A DNA stretch of 64,000 bases, from positions 2,576,599 to 2,640,598 of the forward strand of contig NZ_CP145809.1 of the NCBI RefSeq assembly GCF_038049925.1. The letters run 5' to 3'. Shown here one piece after another: positions 10,707 through 64,000 of the stretch. Below the pieces are notes generated by a model. The model saw nothing but the letters and a program-made list of their open reading frames with translations. It had not been told where the DNA came from and did no database searches. Position 1 is the first letter of the stretch, and every line of letters begins with the position of its first letter. Origin of the DNA: Georgenia sp. M64 (lineage in GTDB: Bacteria; Actinomycetota; Actinomycetes; Actinomycetales; Actinomycetaceae). The position numbers and the translations under genes were made by a program.

Positions 10707-11252
10707 GTGACGACGACGAGGACCAGGGCGCTCGACGCCGCCGTCGAGCTGCTCGGCACCGAGGGGCTGCGCTCCCTCACCCACGTGCGGGTGGACGAGC
10801 GGGCCGGCCTGCCCAAGGGCTCCACGTCGAACTCCTTCCGCACGCGACGCGCCCTCCTGGAAGGGGTGGCCGTGCGGATCCTCGAGCGCGAGCTGCCCGG
10901 GGTCGGCACGACGTTCACCCAGCCGTCCACGCCCGAGGAGTTCGTCGAGGGCCTCAGCAGCCTCCTCGAGCTCCTCACCGGGCCGGCGCGCGTCCCGACG
11001 ACGGCCCGGCTCGTCCTGTTCCTCGAGGCCAGCCACGACCCACCGCTCCGCGAGGTGCTCTCGCGCGGACGCGGGATCCTCGAGGCGATGGGGGTCGCGA
11101 GCCTCGCCACCCTCGGCGCCCGCGACCCGCGCAACGCGGCAGCCGCCGTCGCCGCATGCTTCGAGGGCCTGCTCCTGCACCGGGTCGCCCGCCACGACGA
11201 GACCGACCCGCGGCCCGTGCTCGGCCTGGTGGTGCGCGGCGCGCTCGCCTGA
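10707..11252 (+). CDS. TetR-family transcriptional regulator
   Basis: 181 residues from GTG 10707, eight bases after the -10, giving a leaderless message; an upstream GTG at 10698 lies in the promoter and is less likely. N-terminal HTH (LRSLTHVRVDERAGLPKGST then SNSFRTRRALLEGV) belongs to the TetR group with the KGSTSN variant of helix 3. Ligand unknown. Likely represses itself, the divergent cysteine-rich pair and perhaps the hydrolase at 3652. Confidence 0.82.
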   Translation: MTTTRTRALDAAVELLGTEGLRSLTHVRVDERAGLPKGSTSNSFRTRRALLEGVAVRILERELPGVGTTFTQPSTPEEFVEGLSSLLELLTGPARVPTTARLVLFLEASHDPPLREVLSRGRGILEAMGVASLATLGARDPRNAAAAVAACFEGLLLHRVARHDETDPRPVLGLVVRGALA

Positions 11253-11635
11253 GCCCCTCAGCGGCGTCGACGACGAACGGCAGACCCACGCCGAGCAGCA
11301 CGCGGTCGGCCGTCAAGAACCCCAGGCGCCCAGCCCGAGCCTGCGCGACGAGCAGGCTGTCGAACGGGTCGTGGCCGTCGAGGCCCGTCAGGGCGAGCAT
11401 CGCCCGGGCATGCCCCGCCGTGACGGGGAGCTCGGTCAGCCCGCTCCGCAGGAGGTCGGCCTCGAAGGAGTCCGGCAGGTCCAACGCGGCCCTTGCGGAC
11501 CTTGAGCAGCAGCTCCCAGATGCTCGCCGCCGAGAACGACGGTCGCGCCGAGGACGCCATCGCCGCGCGGGCGGACGGTCCCGGCCGCGCGTCGTCGGTC
11601 GTCCACCAGAGCAGGACGTGGCTGTCGAGGAGCAC
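11253..11635 (-). pseudogene. VapC-type PIN-domain toxin, frameshifted
   Basis: From GTG 11635 the first 50 codons read as a VapC start (LLDSHVLLWW, with the first PIN Asp; then SIWELLLKVRKGR with the conserved Glu). Near 11480 the frame breaks: the C-terminal half (DLPDSFEADLLRSGL ... HDPFDSLLVAQA ... FLTAD, carrying the remaining PIN acids) is in the next frame. Removing one T from the GTTGGACC junction restores a V-D-L-P reading. The shifted frame does not stop before it overlaps the TetR gene. Either decayed or a sequencing error; the gene would be a type II RNase toxin. Confidence 0.6.
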
Positions 11636-11637
11636 CG

Positions 11638-11784
11638 TCAGCGTTCCGTCGGGTCGACGGGCGCCTCGACCACCGCCCGGACGAGCCCGGGGTCGGGATC
11701 GTCGAACGTCTCGGTGTCGTAGCGGATCCACCCCTTGAGCAGTCCGGGCACCAGTGCGGACCGGACGTGGGGCACGGTCCGCAC
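11638..11784 (-). CDS. Possible antitoxin-like small ORF upstream of vapC
   Basis: A 48-codon frame (start GTG 11784) ends with TGA two bases before the vapC GTG. The peptide (VRTVPHVRSALVPGLLKGWI ... PTER) is not a recognisable VapB or Phd protein. Its position just ahead of a PIN toxin is the only argument for an antitoxin role; it may be a remnant. Confidence 0.3.
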   Translation of the reverse strand: MRTVPHVRSALVPGLLKGWIRYDTETFDDPDPGLVRAVVEAPVDPTER

Positions 11785-11807
11785 GGCACACCGACCCGCT
11801 GCTACGC

Positions 11808-11827
11808 TTGTCCGGACGTACTGACAA
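11808..11827 (+). promoter_or_regulatory. Inositol-regulon operator upstream of iolG
   Basis: TTGTCCGGACGTACTGACAA is an imperfect 20-base palindrome (TTGTC-N-G-N-ACGT-N-C-N-GACAA). TGTCCGGACA and TTGTCCTGACA versions recur between iolC and the GntR gene, so this is the likely GntR box of the locus. Confidence 0.55.
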
Positions 11828-11876
11828 AGCCCGGCCGCTCGTGCCGACGGCGACCACCCAAGGAAGGGAAGTCCCG

Positions 11877-12884
11877 GTGCTGCGTTTCGCCCTCATCGGA
11901 GCCGGCCGGATCGGCGCGGTCCACGGCGCCTCGATCGCCGCCCACCCCGGCGCGAGCCTGGCGCTCGTGGCGGACCCCGATCTCGAGGCCGCCGGCCGGC
12001 TGGCGACCCGGTTCGGCGCCCGCTCCACGACCGACGTCTCCGACGTCTACGCCGCAGGTGACGTCGACGCCGTCATCGTCGGCTCCCCCACCGCGCTGCA
12101 CGTCGAGCACCTCACCGCCGCCGTCGCCGCGGGCAAGGCGGTCCTCGTCGAGAAGCCGGTCGACCTCGACATCGCCCGGGTCGATGCGTGCATCGCGGCG
12201 GTGGGCGGGGACGCCCGGCGCGTCATGGTCGGGTTCAACCGCCGCTTCGACCCGGCCTTCGCCGAGGTCCGCGCCCGGTCGGGCGAGGTGGGCGAGGTCG
12301 AGCAGGTGACGATCGTCAGCCGCGACCCCGCCCCGCCGCCGGCGCAGTACGTGGCCAGCTCGGGCGGTCTGTTCCGCGACATGGCCATCCACGACCTCGA
12401 CATGGCCCGCTTCCTCGTCGGCGAGATCGCCTCCGTCCACGCCGTCGGCCAGCGTCTCGGCACGGTGCCGGAGCCCGACGTCGACGGCGCCGTCACGACC
12501 CTCGTCGCCGAGAGCGGCGCCGTCGTGACGATCGTCAACTCGCGCCACTGCGCCACCGGCTACGACCAGCGGCTGGAGGTCTTCGGCCCGCTCGGCTCGC
12601 TCGAGGTGGGCAACGTGCGGGCGACGACGGTGCGCCACCACGGGGCGACGACGAGCGCGGCCACGGGGCCGTACCTCGACTTCTTCCTCGAGCGGTACGC
12701 CACCGCCTACGCCCGCGAGCTCGACCACTTCGTCACGGCGATCACTGCCGGCGAGGCGCCGAGCCCCACGCTCGCGGACGGCCGCGCCGCCCTCGAGCTC
12801 GCCGACGCGGCGACGCTCAGCGCCGCCACCGGGGAGACCGTGCGACTGCGGTCCTCCGCCCCCATGGAGAAGGAGACGGTATGA
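11877..12884 (+). CDS. iolG: myo-Inositol 2-dehydrogenase (Gfo/Idh/MocA family)
   Basis: 335 residues from GTG 11877, preceded by AGGAAGGGA. The N-terminal Rossmann fold (FALIGAGRIGAVHG) binds NAD; the EKP motif (VEKPVDLD, about residue 95) and the RDMAIHDLDMARFL motif with catalytic Asp and His (about residue 175) are intact. It oxidises myo-inositol to 2-keto-myo-inositol in the cytosol. Its stop overlaps the next start (ATGA). The divergent iolC-iolB genes support the inositol assignment. Confidence 0.85.
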   Translation: MLRFALIGAGRIGAVHGASIAAHPGASLALVADPDLEAAGRLATRFGARSTTDVSDVYAAGDVDAVIVGSPTALHVEHLTAAVAAGKAVLVEKPVDLDIARVDACIAAVGGDARRVMVGFNRRFDPAFAEVRARSGEVGEVEQVTIVSRDPAPPPAQYVASSGGLFRDMAIHDLDMARFLVGEIASVHAVGQRLGTVPEPDVDGAVTTLVAESGAVVTIVNSRHCATGYDQRLEVFGPLGSLEVGNVRATTVRHHGATTSAATGPYLDFFLERYATAYARELDHFVTAITAGEAPSPTLADGRAALELADAATLSAATGETVRLRSSAPMEKETV

Positions 12885-13741
12885 GGATCGCCGGAGCGCC
12901 CATCAGCTGGGGCGTGTGCGAGGTGCCCGGCTGGGGCCACCAGCTCACCCCCGAGCGGGTCCTGACCGAGATGCGCGACGTCGGTCTCGAGGCCACCGAG
13001 TTCGGCCCCCAGGGGTGGCTGCCCGAGGCCCCGGCCGAGCGCGCCGCTGCCATCTCCCCGTACGGCCTCAAGGCGGTCGGCGCGTTCGTGCCGGTCGTGC
13101 TGCACGACCCGGGCCACGACCCCGTGCCGGAGGTCGAGCGCGAGCTGGACAGCTTCGAGGCCGCCGGCGGCGACGTCCTCGTCCTCGCCGCGGCCACCGG
13201 CCAGGAGGGCTACGACGAGCGTCCCGAGCTCGACGACGACGGCTGGGCCACGCTGCTGGCCAACCTCGACCGCCTCACCGAGGTGACTGCCCGCCGCGGG
13301 ATCCGCGCCAGCCTGCACCCGCACGTCGGCACGATGATCGAGCAGCGCGCCGAGGTCCTGCGCGTGCTCGAGGGCTCCGCCGTGCCGCTGTGCCTGGACA
13401 CCGGCCACCTCCTCATCGGCGGCACCGACCCGGCCGAGCTCGCCCGTGACTGGGCCGCGCGCATCAACCACGTCCACGCCAAGGACGTGCGCGCCGACCT
13501 GGCCGACTCGGTCCGGGCCGGCGACCTCACCTACACGGAGGCGGTCCGGCGCGGCATCTACGTCCCGCTCGGCCAGGGCGACGTCGACCTCGCGTCGATC
13601 GTCCGTGACCTCGCGGCCGCCGGGTTTGACGGCTGGTACGTGCTCGAGCAGGACACCATCCTCGGCGGCGCCCCCGACGGCGAGGGGCCGGTGGGCGACG
13701 TCGCCACCTCGCTCGCGTACCTGCGCAGCCTCGCCGGCTGA
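12881..13741 (+). CDS. TIM-barrel inosose dehydratase/isomerase-like protein (IolE/IolI type)
   Basis: 286 residues, ATG 12881 overlapping the iolG stop. AP_endonuclease_2-type barrel: SLHPHVGTM, LCLDTGHLL and NHVHAKDV strands supply the metal ligands His, Asp and His. The opening APISWGVCEVPGWGHQL is typical of the actinobacterial iol-linked branch and differs from Bacillus IolE, so dehydratase versus isomerase (IolI) activity is not settled. It would act on the product of IolG. Confidence 0.75.
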   Translation: MRIAGAPISWGVCEVPGWGHQLTPERVLTEMRDVGLEATEFGPQGWLPEAPAERAAAISPYGLKAVGAFVPVVLHDPGHDPVPEVERELDSFEAAGGDVLVLAAATGQEGYDERPELDDDGWATLLANLDRLTEVTARRGIRASLHPHVGTMIEQRAEVLRVLEGSAVPLCLDTGHLLIGGTDPAELARDWAARINHVHAKDVRADLADSVRAGDLTYTEAVRRGIYVPLGQGDVDLASIVRDLAAAGFDGWYVLEQDTILGGAPDGEGPVGDVATSLAYLRSLAG

Positions 13742-13787
13742 GGTTCCACCGCGCCGGCTGAGCTTCGCCGGCTGAGCTTCGCCGGTG
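13733..13787. repeat. Tandem 14-bp repeat at end of iolE-like gene
   Basis: The unit GCCGGCTGAGSTTC occurs at 13733-13746, 13753-13766 and 13767-13780, beginning inside the last codons of the gene. It looks like local slippage duplication. The rest of the 180-base gap to the iolD remnant has only two GGGGAAGAA copies near 13848 and 13867. Confidence 0.6.
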
Positions 13788-13918
13788 CCAGCCGCTGCCG
13801 TCCGGGGCAGGTGCCGTTTCGCCGCCCGACAGCCGGGGTCGCCGAGCGGGGAAGAACTGGCGGACTGGGGAAGAAACAGCCGCTCTGAGCCGTCGAAACC
13901 TCCCCGACTGTTGCCACA

Positions 13919-14347
13919 TCACGGCGGATGGCCCGCGGCTACTCCAGCCGGAGACCGACGCTCACGGTGCCCGGCGAGCGCCAGCTGAGGTAGAGCCGGG
14001 TGCCGCCGAGGGCGTCGGTGCCGCCGAGGAAGGTGTACGCCTCGCCGGGCCGGTACAGCGGCGGACGCTCCGGTGCGGGCGTACCCGACGGCGGTGTGGA
14101 CCATGGCCTGCTCGTTGCGGGCGAGGTAGTACGGGACCGTGCGCTCGGCCGGCTCGGGGTCGAGGTGGTTCTCGGCGAGCGCCTGCCCCAGCCCGGCGAC
14201 GTTGCCGTGGCCGAAGATCCCCATGACGCCGGCGACGAGGGGCCGCTCGACGCCGTCCCGCTCGGTGTGCTGGTTGGCGAGGAACCGCAGCAGGGCCTGG
14301 CCCACGGTGAGGCGGACGGTGGGCCGGTCGGCGTCGGGGGTGGTCAT
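13919..14347 (-). pseudogene. iolD: iolD, truncated after about 90 codons
   Basis: From ATG 14347 (overlapping the iolB stop) the frame encodes the first about 90 residues of 3D-trihydroxycyclohexane-1,2-dione hydrolase (RLTVGQALLRFLANQH, GVMGIFGHGNVAGLGQAL with the ThDP-enzyme Glu region, NEQAMVHTAVGYAR). The match stops there; family members are about 640 residues. What follows reads in another frame as a different C-terminus (YRPGEAYTFLGGTDALGG ... VGLRLE, stop at 13939-13941). The rest of iolD and whatever lay between has been deleted, or a rearrangement joined two genes. Confidence 0.75.
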
Positions 14348-15288
14348 CGTGCCTCCTGCGCAGGACGGGTCATCGGCAGACGGGGGTCGACCTGCTCGCG
14401 CTCCCACGTGCCGCGCACCCAGTGGTGCGCCGGGTCGTCGGTCATGAGCCAGGCGCCGTCGTCGGCGGGGCCGGCCATGACGTTGAGGTAGTACAGGTCG
14501 TACCCCGGGGCCGCCATCGACGGACCGTGGTAGCCGTGCGGCGTGAGGACGACGTCGCCGGCGCGCACCTCGGCGGCCAGGTCGAGCGGCCGGCCCGGCG
14601 AGCCGTAGGAGCGGTGGAAGCCGAAGCCGGGACCGTCGGGGCCGGCGGCGACGTCGAAGTAGTAAATCTCCTCGAGCTCGCGCTCGTCGTCGGTGTGCTC
14701 GTCGTCCTTGTGCGGGGGGTAGGAGGACCAGTTCCCGGCCGGGGTGAGGACCTCGCAGACGAGGAGGTGGTCGGTGCGCACGTCGTTGCCGAGGGCGTAG
14801 TTGTTGACCTGGCGGGAGGCCGCCCCGGCGCCGCGCAGCTCGGTGCGCACGGCGTCCGCCCGCTGGTAGGACACGGGCAGGTCCCGGGTGGCGCGCGCCG
14901 TCGGCAGGGCCAGCCGGGCGCCGTCGGGGGCGGTGATCACGGCGGTGGTCCGGCGGGGCAGGTAGAGGAAGTCGGTCACGGCGGTGAAGACGTCGGGGCG
15001 GCCGTGGAGCTCGAGGAGGGCGGCGCCGTCGGGAGCCCCGCCGTCCTGAGCACCAACGCCGGGAGCCCCACCGCCGGGCGTCTCGAGCACCTCGACGACG
15101 CACCCGCCGGCGAGCGGCAGGACGAGCAGCTCGTCGTCGCCGGTGGCGAGCTCGTGGATCCCGCCCGGCGCCAGCTCGAGGACCTTGAGGCCGCTGAAGG
15201 CCCACCCGGCCCGCTCGGGGGTGACGTCCACCGAGTACGGGCCGTGGCCGGTGGTGCCGGCGCGCAGGAGGATCTCGCTCACGGTCAC
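14344..15288 (-). CDS. iolB: 5-Deoxy-glucuronate isomerase
   Basis: 314 residues from GTG 15288, which overlaps the preceding stop (GTGA). Bicupin fold: the second cupin holds the metal motif around PHKDDEHTDDERELEEIYYF and TPHGYHGPSMAAPGYDLYYL, in short the His/Glu ligands typical of IolB. Converts 5-deoxy-glucuronate to 5-dehydro-2-deoxy-gluconate, the IolC substrate. There is a short Gly/Ala/Pro insertion (about residues 70-85) absent from most homologues. Confidence 0.85.
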   Translation of the reverse strand: MTVSEILLRAGTTGHGPYSVDVTPERAGWAFSGLKVLELAPGGIHELATGDDELLVLPLAGGCVVEVLETPGGGAPGVGAQDGGAPDGAALLELHGRPDVFTAVTDFLYLPRRTTAVITAPDGARLALPTARATRDLPVSYQRADAVRTELRGAGAASRQVNNYALGNDVRTDHLLVCEVLTPAGNWSSYPPHKDDEHTDDERELEEIYYFDVAAGPDGPGFGFHRSYGSPGRPLDLAAEVRAGDVVLTPHGYHGPSMAAPGYDLYYLNVMAGPADDGAWLMTDDPAHHWVRGTWEREQVDPRLPMTRPAQEAR

Positions 15289-55054: not shown

Positions 55055-55962
55055 ACAACGACCTGGCCCCGGCCGCCCTGGACCACCTGCACGACAGTGC
55101 CCGGGCTCTGGCTCGGCTCCCGGCTGAGGAACGGGTTCGGCACGTGCGCGCGGACCGGTGGATCGGCTACTCCCGGGCCACCGCGGCCCTGGACCGGCTC
55201 GAGACGCTGCATGCGTGGCCGGGCCGGCAACGGATGCCCAACTTGTTGCTGGTCGGCCCGACGAACAACGGCAAATCCATGATCATCGAGAAGTTCCGCC
55301 GCCTCCACCCACCCACCTCGCACGCGGACCGGGAGGAGATCCCGGTGCTGGTCGTGCAGATGCCCTCCGAACCGTCGGTGATCCGGTTCTACGTCGCCCT
55401 GCTCGCCGCGCTCGGCGCGCCGCTACGCCCGCGTCAGCGCCTGGCCGACATCGAGCCAGTGGCGTTGACGCTGCTGCGGGCCGCGAGAGTCCGGGTGCTG
55501 GTCATCGACGAGCTGCACAACATCCTCGCCGGGCGGTCCGACACCCGCCGGGAGTTCCTCAACCTCATCCGCTTCCTCGGCAACGAGCTGCGCATCCCGC
55601 TGGTCGGGGTCGGCACCCGCGAGGCGTACCTGGCCATCCGCTCCGACGACCAGCTCGAGAACCGCTTCGAGCCCTTCACCCTGCCCCGATGGGAGTCCGA
55701 CCAGGAGACACGGTCGCTGCTGGCCAGCTTCGCCGCCGCCTTCCCGCTGCGTCGCCGATCGACCATCGCCACCGAGGAGATGGCCCGCTACCTGCTGACC
55801 CGCAGTGAGGGCACGATCGGCGAGCTCACCCACCTGCTCGTCGACGCCGCCGTGGCCGCGATCGAGTCCGGCGAGGAGGCCATCAACCAGCGCACCCTTC
55901 TCCTGGCGCCCTATGCCGGCCCCACGGAACGACGCCGGATGTTCGAACGCGAGCTGGCATGA
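55048..55962 (+). CDS. tniB: TniB-type AAA ATPase
   Basis: 304 residues from GTG 55048 (GTG 55051 is an alternative). Walker A LLVGPTNNGKSMI (about residue 68), Walker B VRVLVIDELHNIL and sensor GVGTREAYLA, as in TniB/MuB/TnsC-like targeting ATPases. Overlaps tniQ by ATGA. Confidence 0.86.
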   Translation: MVNNDLAPAALDHLHDSARALARLPAEERVRHVRADRWIGYSRATAALDRLETLHAWPGRQRMPNLLLVGPTNNGKSMIIEKFRRLHPPTSHADREEIPVLVVQMPSEPSVIRFYVALLAALGAPLRPRQRLADIEPVALTLLRAARVRVLVIDELHNILAGRSDTRREFLNLIRFLGNELRIPLVGVGTREAYLAIRSDDQLENRFEPFTLPRWESDQETRSLLASFAAAFPLRRRSTIATEEMARYLLTRSEGTIGELTHLLVDAAVAAIESGEEAINQRTLLLAPYAGPTERRRMFERELA

Positions 55963-57212
55963 GCCGTCGGTGGCCCCTGCACCCGCCACCGGGCGACGGT
56001 GAGGCGCTGTCCTCCTGGCTCAACCGGCTGGCCGAGATCTACGGGCTCAGCGTCGAGGAACTGATCCGCCACGACCTGGTCCCACCGGGTACAGGCCCGG
56101 TGGTCCACGACGGCGGCGCCCTGGACCTGGACCCGCCGGCCGGAGTGCTCAGCGCCCTGCATCGGCGCACCGGGGTGCCCCTGGGCGAGCTGCGCCAGAT
56201 GACGATCAGCGGATGGGTGCCTTGGCTGCTCGACACCCTGGACGTCGAACCGGAGGCCGAGGCGGCACTCGACACCTACGTCCACCAGGACTCGGTGCTC
56301 CTCACCGCCAAGGAACGGCCCCGCCGGCAGGTGCCCGGCTGGCGCGCCTGGCTGCCCTCGGACCGCAGACGCGGACCGATGCGCCGGGCCTGCCCGACCT
56401 GCGCGAGCACCACCACGACCGGCGGCTCCGGCTTCACCCTTGTCTCCCAGCTACCACTCACGCTCAGCTGCCCGCAGCACAGCTGCCGCCTCGAACCGGC
56501 CCTCGGCGCCCTCGGGGCCTTCATCGCCTGGGCGAGGCAGGACACCAGCGCCACCGCCGCACCGGCCCCGGTCATCGCCATGGACTCGCTCACCCACGAG
56601 GGACTGCGCACCGGTCTCGTCCCCCTCCCCCGCCGTCGAGTGCACGTCGGGGTGTGGTTTCGACTGCTGCGCACCCTGATCGACGAGCTCTCCACCCCCG
56701 TCTCGCTCCTGCGCGTCCGTTCCCGGCGCACCATGCAGCACCTCTGGGACGTGGCCGGTCATCCACCACGGGCCGGCATGGCGGGCCCCTGGCGCCCCTA
56801 CGAGACACTGCCCTGGCCCCAGCAGCGAATGCTCCTGGAAGCCGCCGCCACCACCCTCCAATTGGTCAAGGCCGGCGAGGTCACCGCTTACGGCACCCTG
56901 GGCCATCTCCTGTCCCCCGAGGCCTACCGGCCCGTTCCCGACGGCAGCACACCGATCCAGCGCCGCCGTGACTACTGGCGGGAGATCGAGGATGCGACGA
57001 ACCAAGCCATCGCCGACGCCCAGCGCGACCCCGCCGCAGCACGGCAGCTGCTGACCACCCTCACCGCCCTGACCCGCAGCGAGACCACCTTCCGACGCAC
57101 CCGCGAGGACCTGGTCGCCCTGGGCGTCCCCGACCGCCACCTTCCTCGGACGCTGACCGAGGCACACGCCCGTGACACGCCGCCCGCCATGAGGACGCCC
57201 TCATCACATTAA
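55959..57212 (+). CDS. tniQ: TniQ family protein
   Basis: 417 residues. N-terminal TniQ domain (PGDGEALSSWLNRLAEIYGL) with a zinc finger (RACPTC ... LSCPQHSC, about 145-175) and a variable helical C-terminus. In Tn402-like elements it is required for transposition and helps target choice. Confidence 0.82.
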   Translation: MSRRWPLHPPPGDGEALSSWLNRLAEIYGLSVEELIRHDLVPPGTGPVVHDGGALDLDPPAGVLSALHRRTGVPLGELRQMTISGWVPWLLDTLDVEPEAEAALDTYVHQDSVLLTAKERPRRQVPGWRAWLPSDRRRGPMRRACPTCASTTTTGGSGFTLVSQLPLTLSCPQHSCRLEPALGALGAFIAWARQDTSATAAPAPVIAMDSLTHEGLRTGLVPLPRRRVHVGVWFRLLRTLIDELSTPVSLLRVRSRRTMQHLWDVAGHPPRAGMAGPWRPYETLPWPQQRMLLEAAATTLQLVKAGEVTAYGTLGHLLSPEAYRPVPDGSTPIQRRRDYWREIEDATNQAIADAQRDPAAARQLLTTLTALTRSETTFRRTREDLVALGVPDRHLPRTLTEAHARDTPPAMRTPSSH

Positions 57213-57338: not shown

Positions 57339-57956
57339 GTGCTGGTCGGCTACATGCGGGTCTCCAAGGCCGACGGGTCTCAGACTACCGATCTCCAACG
57401 CGATGCCCTCCTCGCCGCCGGCATGGACGCCGACGCCCTGTACGAGGACAAGGCCTCAGGCAAGAAGGAAGACCGGCCATTGCTCGCCGCGTGCCTCAAG
57501 GCGCTACGGCCCGGGGACACCCTCATGGTGTGGAAGCTCGACCGACTCGGCCGCGACCTGCGCCATCTGGTCAACATCGTCCACGACCTCACCACCCGCG
57601 GCATCGGCCTCAAGGTCCTCACCGGGCAGGGTGCGGCCATCGACACCACCACAGCCTCCGGCAAGCTCGTCTTCGGCATTTTCGCCGCCCTGGCCGAGTT
57701 CGAACGCGAACTCATCTCCGAACGCACCATCGCCGGCCTCGCCGCCGCCCGCGCCCGCGGCCGCAAAGGCGGACGCCCCTACAAGATGACCCCCGCCAAG
57801 ATCCGCCTCGCCATGGCCTCCATGGGGAAACCAGACACCAACGTCGCCGCCCTGTGCAAAGAGCTCGGCATCACCCGCCAAACCCTCTACCGCCACGTCT
57901 CCCCGGAAGGAGAGCTGCGCCCAGACGGAGCAAAACTACTCGGCGCCAACCACTGA
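57339..57956 (+). CDS. tniR: TniR-type serine recombinase (resolvase)
   Basis: 205 residues from GTG 57339. Catalytic Ser in LVGYMRVSKADGSQTTDLQR (about residue 9), GDTLMVWKLDRLGRDLRHLV, and a C-terminal HTH (VAALCKELGITRQTLYRHV). Resolves cointegrates at the adjacent res site. Confidence 0.88.
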   Translation: MLVGYMRVSKADGSQTTDLQRDALLAAGMDADALYEDKASGKKEDRPLLAACLKALRPGDTLMVWKLDRLGRDLRHLVNIVHDLTTRGIGLKVLTGQGAAIDTTTASGKLVFGIFAALAEFERELISERTIAGLAAARARGRKGGRPYKMTPAKIRLAMASMGKPDTNVAALCKELGITRQTLYRHVSPEGELRPDGAKLLGANH

Positions 57957-60018: not shown

Positions 60019-60495
60019 TCAATCTCGGGAGAGTCCTGTCGGCCAGATGATGCGCACGTTTCTACCAAGCTCTCGGGCATAGGCGACAGCATCGGCGGTT
60101 CCTCCTCGACCACGTGCAGGTTCCCCATCCCACACCGCGATCAGGATGTGGCAGTGCTCAGCGATCCACTTACCCGCGGCGTCGTATGCCTCTTCCGATG
60201 GTCCGGGGTACTCAAGCACCGTGGTGGTCGTTGCGGCGCTCAGCAGGTTGGCGTAGTTGTCGTGGTCCTGGCCGGAAAAGGTCGCCTCGTACCCGCCGGA
60301 AGGGATGACCGCGTGCAGGTCGCCGCCGGCTGCCAGGAGCTCGCGCGCGAAGAGCTGGTCGGTGCCAGCGGCGAGGCTGCTGTACCCCACCAGCGGTGGG
60401 CGTTGCTCAGCAATGACAGCCTGCATGCCGGCGGTAACGTAGCCGATCGCTTGGGCCGGAATGCTCTGGTGCCCGGTGACGCCGAGCCGAGTCAT
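60019..60495 (-). CDS. SLOG-domain (Rossmann-like nucleotide-binding) protein
   Basis: 158 residues from ATG 60495, overlapping the caspase gene stop by ATGA. SLOG features: LGVTGHQSIPAQ start, GYSSLAAGTDQLFARELLAA, LHAVIPSGGYEATF, and ILIAVWDGEPARGRGGTADA near the C-terminus. SLOG domains bind nucleotide-derived ligands; in Thoeris ThsA one senses the TIR product. As a separate protein coupled to a caspase and TIR it may sense, buffer or degrade the signal. Inference from context. Confidence 0.72.
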   Translation of the reverse strand: MTRLGVTGHQSIPAQAIGYVTAGMQAVIAEQRPPLVGYSSLAAGTDQLFARELLAAGGDLHAVIPSGGYEATFSGQDHDNYANLLSAATTTTVLEYPGPSEEAYDAAGKWIAEHCHILIAVWDGEPARGRGGTADAVAYARELGRNVRIIWPTGLSRD

Positions 60496-61452
60496 ATGCG
60501 TCCGGCCTTCACAAGCTGCCAGTAGTGCTTGCCGAGCGCGGTCAGCCGGCACCCGGTGGAATGCATCGCGGCATAGTAAAGGTGCTCTTCGTCAATCGGT
60601 TCGATGAGCCGGCACGCGCGGTACTTCTGCAGCCCGGAGAAGATCTTCTCGTACTCAGGAATGCTGCTCTCTTCGGTGGGCTCGTACGTCGGGTCGAGCG
60701 GGTAGTCGTAGTCCGCCGTCGGGAACCACTCAGTGAGGCTGCGAAGGGTGGGCAGCGGGACACGCGGGTCGCACATGCGGATGTCGTGCAACCGGTCGAT
60801 ATTCGCCTTGAACGTCGGCCGTTGCTCCCACGCACCGAACGATTCTGACAGATAGGCGTACAGCCCGGAGACGTTGACGTGCCCAAGGACATCGGCCGCC
60901 CCACCGTCCAGCGCGCCCTCTAGGTAGGTGGAAAACTGCCCACGCCCGTCGGCGGTCTCCATCGACACCTGGTCGTTGCGGCTTGCGGTGAGAACCGAGA
61001 GGCCGCGGCGGAGGTTGGCTAGCTGATTGCCCAGCGCCCCGATGGTCGTAGCCCCGCCTGAGAAGCAGCAATCGAGGATCACGACCACCTCACTAACGCT
61101 GCTACGCCCGATTCGGTCGACAATTTCGGCGAAGGCAACGCCGGGAGTCGAGGTGGTGCCATCGGAGGTTACCAAGGCGACGTCGCCATTCAGTGGCGCT
61201 CCGTGACCGGCGAAGTACAGGAGCGCGAAATCGGAGCCCGGAGCGAGCAGTTCGTCGACGAGCGCGAGCAGGTCGTCTCGGGTAAGTCTGTCCCTTGCGG
61301 TACGTACCGTGACGACCCGGCAGTCGAGGTTCGGAGAGTCATCTTCGTTGCGAGCCAGCAATGGGTGGAGCGCTGCGGCGTCGTTCGCACACCCCCCCCA
61401 AGTCGGGGAAGTTGTCGTAGTGGTCAATGCCGAGGAGCAGTGCACGTTTCAT
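60492..61452 (-). CDS. Caspase-like (peptidase C14) protease, frame broken at poly-G run
   Basis: Starts ATG 61452, seven bases after the TIR stop: KRALLLGIDHYDNFPDLGG. The run of eight G (61392-61399 as C) then shifts the frame; with seven it continues CANDAAALHPLLARNED and gives 319 residues. Catalytic His83 (LLYFAGHGAP) and Cys129 (VVILDCCFSGG) are present. The C-terminal about 110 residues (DPTYEPTEESSIPEYEKIF ... AAMHSTGCRLTALGKHYW) form a domain typical of defence-linked caspases. It is probably the effector cleaving host proteins when the TIR signal appears. Confidence 0.78.
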
Positions 61453-61459
61453 CAAGTGG

Positions 61460-61837
61460 TCACAAACTGTCGATGAAGCTGGACACGTTTTCCCAGGTCC
61501 ACGTCTTGCACGGTGCGGAGCCCATCTGGGACGGCTTGGTGCGGTAGCCATCTTCGATCCAGATGCCGAGCAGCGGGGCGCCCTCCTCGACGGCGCACTT
61601 AATTTCCCACAGCTGCCCCGTCGCGGCCGGCGTGCTGCTGCTAATCAGTGCGATGACCCCATCAGAGCGCCGGATGCGCGTGCGAACGCGCTCCTTCCAC
61701 TGCGATGAGTAGGGCTCCTTCACTGACATGTCGATGAACTCGAACGGAGTGTCCGGGTGCACCCGCTGGCCGGTGAAAAGGTTGCGCGTCGTCTCGTCTT
61801 CCTTGGCGAAGGCGATGAACACAGTCTTGGACGTCAA
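61460..61837 (-). CDS. TIR-like (ThsB-type) signalling protein
   Basis: 125 residues from TTG 61837. TIR fold: KTVFIAFAKEDETTRNLF first strand and helix, SSQWKERVRTRIRRSDGVIA, then ISSSTPAATGQLWEIKCAVE with Glu78 as the likely NADase residue, and LLGIWIEDG. Closest in plan to stand-alone ThsB-like TIRs that turn NAD+ into a cyclic-ADP-ribose isomer upon infection. Start is not certain: no strong ribosome site; GTG codons lie five codons in. First gene of the TIR-caspase-SLOG operon. Confidence 0.75.
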   Translation of the reverse strand: MTSKTVFIAFAKEDETTRNLFTGQRVHPDTPFEFIDMSVKEPYSSQWKERVRTRIRRSDGVIALISSSTPAATGQLWEIKCAVEEGAPLLGIWIEDGYRTKPSQMGSAPCKTWTWENVSSFIDSL

Positions 61838-61963: not shown

Positions 61964-64000
61964 CTATAGGCTCTTTTGGGCTGCGGGGCGGGAGCCGGCC
62001 GGGCTCCCTTTCTCCGCCGGCACAAGCGCCACCTCGTCGTCGTTCGTTGTGTTGATCTCGAACGTCCTGAGGTAGTCGGCGTACAACCGGGTTGTGTCGA
62101 GCGACGAGGACAGCCGCGACACCACTTGCTGGTATCCCGTCACCGAGTCCGAGACAACGAAAGCGTGCGACAGGGGGCGGCCAGCGTCCTCCCGGGCCTG
62201 CACCGCTTCTACGAAACCCGCCCATTGGGTGATGTCGAACAGCACCCCGTACGCCGCGCCATCGGGAAGCGACCACCCGCGCTCAGTGTCGATCTCGTCT
62301 ATCCGGATGCCCCTAGCGCCGGCCTTGAGCCAAAGGAGGGGTGCGATCGCGTGAAAGCGGCGCCCGAGGGATACCAGAGCTGGATCCTCGTAGGTGAGCT
62401 CGAAGAACTCCACGTTCTCCTCGAACCCCTCCGCCATCGGGAACTCGTCGGTGAACTTGTAGTCGCCCTCAATCGGGTCACCGTTCGGGGTCAATCCAGT
62501 TACCGCAGCTCTCACGCGCGGCCAGGCGATTGACTCGGCAATGCCCTGGGCCTCCCACTCCACGTCACCGGGGTTAATGCCCTGCTTCCGCAGTTCCCTG
62601 GCCTCGTCAGCGCTCACTTCGTTGTTGGTGACCACGATCGCGCGCCGCGTGCCACCGTCCTCATGGTTCAGCCTCATGACAGCGTGTGCGGTCGTTGCCG
62701 AGCCGCCGAAAAAGTCGAGAATCAATGCATCTGGCTTGTCCTTCACGAAAAATCGGAGGGCGTCCTCGACTGCGTACAGCGACTTGGGGAAGGGGAACCG
62801 TCGGCCAGGTATCAGATGACGCAGGAGGCTGGTCCCCCCCAGGACCGCCGGCCTCATGGGAGGCAATCCTCCACTGGGTTCCTGGAATGAAGACGGGGGT
62901 ATAGCCAGAGGAATCAACGATGATGGAGCCATCTGCCCGTTTCCCCAGGACCGGGAAGAGTCCCTGCTCGACCTTCCGCTGCTCCCCCCGCTTGAGGTAG
63001 GCGATGGTGGTGCGCTCCCCGCGCCAGTTGCCCATCTTCACGTACCCCTGCTCGATGAGATCCACAAGCGCACCTGGGCTTATCTGCCAGTTGCCCTCAC
63101 TCCCATCTGAGCGAATGGGCCACACTGCGACACAGCCTTCAGGCGGAATTACGTCGTCCCGGTCAGCGCCTAGGAAACTTTCACCCACCGAATCGAAGAC
63201 CGGACCATCTTCCGTGTTGCGCACGAAGACCGGGTAGAACAGTGCGGGGCGGTCCTCTCTCCTGGCATTAGTTCCAGAGCGCAGCAATTCCGCCCAGCGG
63301 AGCTTCTCGGCACGCAGGTCACGTACGACCTTCCACTCGCTCGTCAACGGGAGTGCGCGTGGTGCTGCCCGGCCAAACATCACGAAGTAGACGTATTCAT
63401 CAGTTCGCCCGAAGGCAGCAGATCGTGTCGCGCCCTTTGGGTTAATGACGCTGCTGATCATCTGGATCCGAGCCTCGGGGAACACCTGCTCCAGCAGGAG
63501 GCCCAGGCGCAGATACTCCTTCTCGTCGATGGTGACGATGAGAACGGAGTCGCTGTGGTTGAGCAGGCGCTTGGTGAGCTTGAGTCGGCGCTCCATAAAG
63601 GACAGCCACTTGGAGTGGCGGTACTCGTCGGCATTGTCGACGTAGTCGTTGTTGTACTTCCAGTCCTTCGCACCGGTGTTGTAGGGCGGGTCGATGTAGA
63701 TGGCGTCAACCTTGCCCTCGTACGGGTAGAGCAGGGCCTCGAGGGCGTGATAGTTCTCGGCGTTGATAATGGAGTGCCAGGGCTGGTCCGTGGGGCCGTT
63801 CTGGACCCGAGCGACGCTCCGCAGGCCTGGGTAGATGGGGTCCCCGAACTCGCGGGTAACGACCAGGCGGTCACGCTCGACGATGTCTGTACGCCCGTCG
63901 CTGTCCTGCAAGGCGGCCATGCCGGTCTGGGCGTTGATCTGCATGACGATCCAGACACCGGAGTCGTTAACAGCGGTGCAGTCGGTGGTGCCTTCTCCAA
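61964..64000 (-). CDS. Beta-class DNA methyltransferase (type III Mod-like), frameshifted, 5' end may lie outside
   Basis: Motif IV DPPYNTG (AIYIDPPYNTGAKDWKYNN) comes first and the SAM motif LDFFGGSATTAHAVMRLN later, the beta order of Mod-type adenine methyltransferases. The frame breaks at seven G (62834-62840 as C): with six, SHEAGGPGGTSLLRHL joins the halves and gives 659 residues from ATG 63944. The frame is also open upstream to the window edge, so the true start may be further out. No Res helicase/nuclease follows; the TIR gene stands where res would be expected. Confidence 0.8.

Follow-up and report, generated by a model that had tools for sequence, protein, structure and literature searches.

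A TIR-caspase-SLOG operon in Georgenia

We analysed a 64,000-nucleotide stretch of the Georgenia sp. M64 genome (contig NZ_CP145809.1, positions 2,576,599 to 2,640,598; hereafter the window), in which a Thoeris-like defence operon encoding a TIR protein, a caspase-like protease and a stand-alone SLOG protein had been predicted from the letters alone. The predicted layout of three minus-strand genes, with a 7-base spacing and an ATGA overlap, was confirmed at 60019-61837. The operon comprises the following features.

61460..61837, minus strand: gene for a TIR protein of the ThsB type, TTG start, 125 amino acids, with Glu78 (PF08937, E 6.3e-9)
61339..61452, minus strand: first part of the caspase gene, read in its native frame from the ATG at 61452, 37 amino acids followed by a stop
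61392..61399, minus strand: eight consecutive G, the point of the caspase frame switch; the 4.18-Mb genome has 7 exact 8-G runs, this one included
60492..61445, minus strand: remainder of the caspase in a frame opening with GTG, with a C14 domain carrying the His and Cys and with a C-terminal domain; the homologous part is 60492-61400
60019..60495, minus strand: stand-alone SLOG gene, 158 amino acids, in ATGA overlap with the caspase stop

The TIR protein matches the ThsB_TIR family (PF08937) at 36.6 bits, above the Pfam cut-off, and the predicted Glu78 is invariant in an alignment of six TIRs. The prediction of a C14 caspase stands in part. The remainder of the gene matches PF00656 at 33.7 bits, also above the cut-off and as the sole match to this family in the genome, and its His and Cys are invariant in 25 of 25 aligned caspases, but the gene does not run in one open frame, switching at the 8-G run. 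Pfam found no SIR2 match in any of the three operon proteins, and the gene upstream of the caspase encodes a TIR, not a CATRA protein. For the third gene, sequence searches of Pfam, PADLOC, NCBIfam and the PDB did not name the protein as SLOG (the single weak Pfam match was to DprA, at E 0.12); the fold alone did, a SLOG Rossmannoid fold spanning the whole 158-residue protein in agreement with the prediction. Weak matches to DprA (6 of 19) and YpsA (3 of 19) recur among members of this SLOG family, and the nearest folds are those of YpsA and DprA, not LOG.

Type IV Thoeris, which combines a TIR with a caspase-like effector, was reportedly described by Rousset et al. in 2025. The window operon shares with such systems, as described in the literature searched, the adjoining ThsB-type TIR and C14 caspase with its His and Cys in the same gene order, whereas it differs in its separate third SLOG gene and in the broken frame of its caspase. 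In PADLOC-DB of 2023, only the ThsB and "caspase" models apply to the operon. Judged from families and gene order rather than from the sequences of the published proteins, the operon very likely belongs to the TIR-caspase, type-IV-Thoeris-like class of abortive-infection systems. In published type IV Thoeris, the N7-cADPR (cyclic ADP-ribose) made by the TIR directly activates the caspase-like protease, leading to protein degradation (PMC12847820). The likeness to type I Thoeris lies in a SLOG fold adjoining a TIR gene, since the SLOG of ThsA binds 3'cADPR and its structure was solved with this nucleotide (entry 7uxs), but the window has no SIR2-SLOG fusion. TIR-caspase defence itself is already known; that a third slot holding SLOG or RyR is undescribed is a weak claim, valid for the literature searched, outside which lie the paper defining type IV and the Burroughs surveys.

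Third genes and caspase clades

A direct scan of contigs with the SLOG protein gave 39 pattern matches and no relative. The TIR served as bait: a TIR-profile scan of genome contigs supplied 82 loci (the best 80 of 276 relatives and 2 viral loci), a set in which SLOG genes without a related TIR are under-sampled. A caspase adjoins the TIR in 74 of the 82 loci, which agrees with the predicted defence operon. The third slot of these 74 holds a RyR-like gene in 33, a SLOG gene in 17 and neither in 24, one of the last being cut by a contig end. SLOG follows 15 of the 16 TIR-linked caspases nearest to the window type, as against 2 of the 58 of the other type. The SLOG gene, whose absence from homologous loci would have counted against the original prediction, is a real and recurrent third gene. 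When all open reading frames (ORFs) of at least 50 amino acids were searched by profile, the loci with neither still showed no SLOG or RyR, but a second SLOG operon emerged in L124. The "neither" group includes other third genes, such as a second TIR in L128 and a nonspecific endonuclease in L117, and also L107 and L131, which have no third ORF of at least 60 amino acids.

The caspase itself was used as an independent query against 297 and 394 genomes, yielding nine loci of the window caspase type besides the window. SLOG is the next gene in six; in a seventh the contig breaks off 152 bases beyond the caspase, and the remaining two (G013 and G063) have a different next gene. One of the six SLOG loci is a TIR operon (L062, TIR 70% identical), and the other five have a CATRA-like protein upstream, as does the locus cut by the contig end. 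These upstream proteins are 52-100% identical to that of L060 (tblastn), and Pfam found CATRA-N/C and EAD1 in all three that were scanned. TIR-caspase loci of the other type also came up with the caspase query, namely L032, L033 and L034, and all three carry RyR. On the caspase tree, the CATRA loci group as one clade (100/99) within the clade of the window, and of the 24 testable caspases in this larger clade 21 have SLOG next. These two observations indicate that SLOG goes with the caspase and not with the TIR, and the notion that SLOG tracks the TIR was rejected.

CATRA caspase systems were reportedly described by Burroughs and Aravind in 2020, a study cited in PMC8195603. They resemble the window operon in their caspase (52-55% identical), their SLOG (47-52%) and the gene order, but differ in carrying a CATRA-N/CATRA-C/EAD1 protein where the window has its TIR and, in L060 and L063, a CATASP-like gene after SLOG (match below the cut-off). 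RyR-type operons resemble the window in their TIR (48-58% identical to the window TIR at non-SLOG loci), in a full-length caspase homologue and in a small third gene that overlaps or adjoins the caspase stop; in contrast, the third gene is RyR-like instead of SLOG and the caspase lies on another branch of the tree. The RyR-like proteins of the 33 loci (L085, L089, L095, L099 and L124 among them) share the conserved motifs EHxRWxHWQ and SDxxQVxxYL, and 18 of 20 matched PF02026 at E<=1, the best at 1.2e-6.

Eight of the 82 TIR loci are without a caspase (L076, L086, L092, L093, L097, L098, L105 and L140). They are not without a partner, as had been considered and rejected: an 8xMP-like membrane protein match lies within about 0.5 kb of each TIR (tblastn; Pfam confirms L076 and L092).

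A plasmid survey, for which eight loci were inspected from listings of 43, 17 and 35 records (one of the eight without annotation), extended the range of these operons. The order TIR-caspase-SLOG is found on the Bacillus subtilis plasmid pBS72 (L156, NZ_KX711616.1), where the third gene is annotated "hypothetical" and scores 156 bits to the SLOG profile, and in the same order on the Agrobacterium plasmid pTiCFBP5877. Rhizobium binae p4 carries TIR-caspase-SLOG-TIR, Methylorubrum SLOG-TIR-caspase-TIR, Novosphingobium TIR-8xMP-SLOG without a caspase, Streptomyces NBC_00984 8xMP-SLOG with no annotated TIR beside it, and Proteus pPp47 TIR-caspase alone, lacking a third gene. Next to obg-proB-like genes there are SLOG paralogues paired with SLATT proteins (Pfam on one, L046). 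Because this non-defence setting occurs in several relatives, SLOG might be regarded as a chance neighbour without a role in the system. This is highly improbable, however, as the overlapping or near-overlapping SLOG of the caspase clade spans Actinomycetota and a metagenome-assembled genome of Planctomycetota, and SLOG-carrying operons also occur on plasmids of Bacillota and Pseudomonadota.

Several loci showed further arrangements. In Rhodococcus erythropolis (L124 4992-10215), two TIR-caspase operons adjoin; one has RyR, and the other combines SLOG with a distant TIR. The TIR-caspase-SLOG operons at L082 843-3088 and L068 5001-8322 have an additional, distant TIR gene within them or close by, as if two TIR sensors fed one effector. 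The third gene at L117 4553-5524 encodes a nonspecific DNA/RNA endonuclease. At L030 8076-9467 and L031 8733-10136, a caspase of the window type is followed not by SLOG but by a protein of 463-467 amino acids with a weak hint of SLATT (E 0.12). SLOG-like genes were found in 10 of 50,697 phage records. One, gene 74 of Streptomyces phage Francob (L157 2998-3483), is 35% identical to the window SLOG and annotated DprA-like; a PnuC-like nicotinamide riboside transporter gene lies about 3 kb away, and a function in counter-defence is possible.

Frame break and surrounding island

From its natural start, the ATG at 61452 (MKRALLLGIDHYDNFPDLGG), the caspase frame closes at 61339, and the rest of the gene, starting near 61400 and reaching its stop at 60492, lies in another frame. 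Within the 37-residue start ORF, only the residues encoded ahead of the G-run resemble caspase. Fourteen relative caspase genes continue unbroken here, and the longest run of G or C in their first 78 bases measures 2 to 4. A conserved programmed frameshift at the G-run was therefore rejected. The island around the operon contains the following features.

61964..63998, minus strand: type III DNA methylase in two frames, 61964-62932 and from 62661 to past the window end, with a C-run (plus strand) at 62834-62840 near the switch
55959..57212, plus strand: TniQ-like gene, a mobile-element gene beside the island
57339..57956, plus strand: resolvase gene, a mobile-element gene beside the island

The two methylase frames match the same PADLOC model, at its positions 12-452 and 448-705, and the 7-base run lies near their junction. 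Past the right end of the window, the type III restriction gene (L048 10790-15223) is interrupted by a DDE-transposase insertion sequence. Its ResIII helicase half (14138-15223) ends at the transposase (12633-14036), which is flanked by 22-base inverted repeats; on the other side, an ORF at 10790-12439 occupies the position expected for the rest of the restriction gene, and no Pfam or PADLOC model matched it.

A sequencing or assembly error in the G-run, with the operon intact, is a possible explanation that we hold with some doubt. The caspase and methylase switches both coincide with or lie close to G-runs, 8 and 7 bases long, and the operon is otherwise open. Against an error stand the quality of the genome, which is a single contig rated 100% complete, the rarity of 8-G runs in it, and the restriction gene beside the island. 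Moreover, broken caspases are found elsewhere: in Janibacter hoylei (L072 5371-6359) the caspase is broken over three frames, with TIR and SLOG genes that look intact, and G036 (L036) has a second broken homologue with internal stops. A transposase between inverted repeats does not arise from faulty reads, and we therefore judge it somewhat likelier that the whole island is decaying than that the assembly is at fault. We thus lean towards a caspase frame that is truly broken in this strain, and the window copy is probably non-functional. The operon probably represents a three-gene subtype with a separate SLOG, of which the window holds a decaying copy.

Taken as a whole, the observation behind the original prediction was partly confirmed and its interpretation, that sensing and killing are split over SLOG and caspase or that SLOG restrains or clears the signal, partly supported. 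It had missed the caspase frame break, the decayed restriction neighbour, the RyR alternative and the CATRA caspase-SLOG pairs without a TIR.

Possible roles of the SLOG protein

In intact copies of the operon, a TIR triggered by phage would convert NAD+ into a cyclic ADP-ribose isomer, judging from its family. The nucleotide would then switch on the caspase through the conserved C-terminal domain, and the caspase would cut cell proteins, by analogy with published type IV Thoeris. SLOG may bind the same kind of nucleotide and gate the response, holding back or clearing the signal until a threshold is reached, more than acting as the sole sensor. We give this explanation as a whole an even chance of being right. 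The part concerning SLOG, that it could be a nucleotide-handling governor rather than the sole sensor, we judge by analogy to stand in the balance.

The caspase itself speaks against SLOG as the only receptor. Among 25 aligned caspases (17 of the SLOG type, 3 of the RyR type and 5 of neither type), 13 of the 35 invariant residues fall in the C-terminal residues 229-319, a part that lay outside most of the matches listed by the caspase fold search. As no third ORF of the size searched was found at L107 or L131, activation of a caspase built this way presumably does not depend on a third gene, and the retention of the C-terminal domain in caspases lacking one makes SLOG less likely as the sole sensor. 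The predicted transfer of sensing from the caspase to SLOG is less supported for the same reason, the domain being kept in caspases of the SLOG, RyR and neither types, L107 and L131 included. From these comparisons, the third gene is presumably an accessory.

In a split sensor, SLOG would receive the nucleotide, much as the SIR2-SLOG protein ThsA does, and would activate the caspase once bound to its ligand. This arrangement nevertheless has points in its favour: the binding of 3'cADPR by the SLOG of ThsA, the distribution of SLOG with the caspase clade and not with the TIR, and its occurrence beside other effectors, as expected of an input module. With the retained C-terminal domain on the other side, we consider this rather unlikely.

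The choice of a governor comes from the company that SLOG keeps. The RyR family includes phage proteins that break down or sequester 2'/3'cADPR (PMC13232231), and the SLOG superfamily includes the 3'cADPR-binding ThsA; for these reasons we prefer a governor. RyR proteins in the slot otherwise held by SLOG favour, by analogy, a SLOG that may restrain or clear the signal. More tentatively, the third position could be exchangeable, occupied by SLOG in some operons and by a RyR-domain protein in others; either would act as a governor, holding cyclic ADP-ribose signals as a threshold or off-switch, with SLOG portable across CATRA-caspase, 8xMP and SLATT systems.

Several observations weigh against a SLOG that governs a TIR-made signal. 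Where the TIR is replaced by CATRA, SLOG is retained in five of five testable loci. None of the eight TIR-8xMP loci has SLOG, so that a TIR signal does not by itself require it, and SLOG accompanies SLATT or 8xMP effectors at loci with no visible TIR. As SLOG is kept with CATRA, SLATT and 8xMP, its ligand may be something other than a TIR product, and it may partner the effector itself; SLOG could then be a sensor, or restrain the effector, with another ligand. The comparison with RyR is itself qualified by the RyR-like member shown, which scores 22.9 bits, under the Pfam cut-off of 27.4 bits. Clearance by base release of the LOG kind is also disfavoured. The LOG phosphoribohydrolase motif PGGxGTxxE carries the catalytic Glu; at the corresponding place, residue 136 (three after Thr133), all 19 SLOGs have A, V, I or T, so that this Glu is absent.

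The same missing residue, together with nearest folds that are not LOG, argues against an enzymatic SLOG that produces or transforms the signal, a proposal made for some SLOG domains that would give two nucleotide-processing steps. SLOG domains are predicted to be sensors or processors of ADP-ribose derivatives in published work (PMC9503650), and an enzyme would suit both the SLATT and 8xMP settings without a visible TIR and the 24 residues invariant in the 19 SLOGs, which include GHQ, Asp46, Trp122-Asp123 and GGTxD. On balance we regard such an enzyme as improbable.

If SLOG is a governor, the operon would be among the few cases of a host signal-clearing gene within its own nucleotide-signalling defence operon. 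The SLOG/RyR slot makes testable the question of how bacteria prevent the accidental firing of a self-killing caspase, with the intact pBS72 operon in B. subtilis as a convenient experimental system. The slot also connects the control of bacterial caspases to two domains of animal ion channels, the SLOG-like domain of TRPM2 and RyR.
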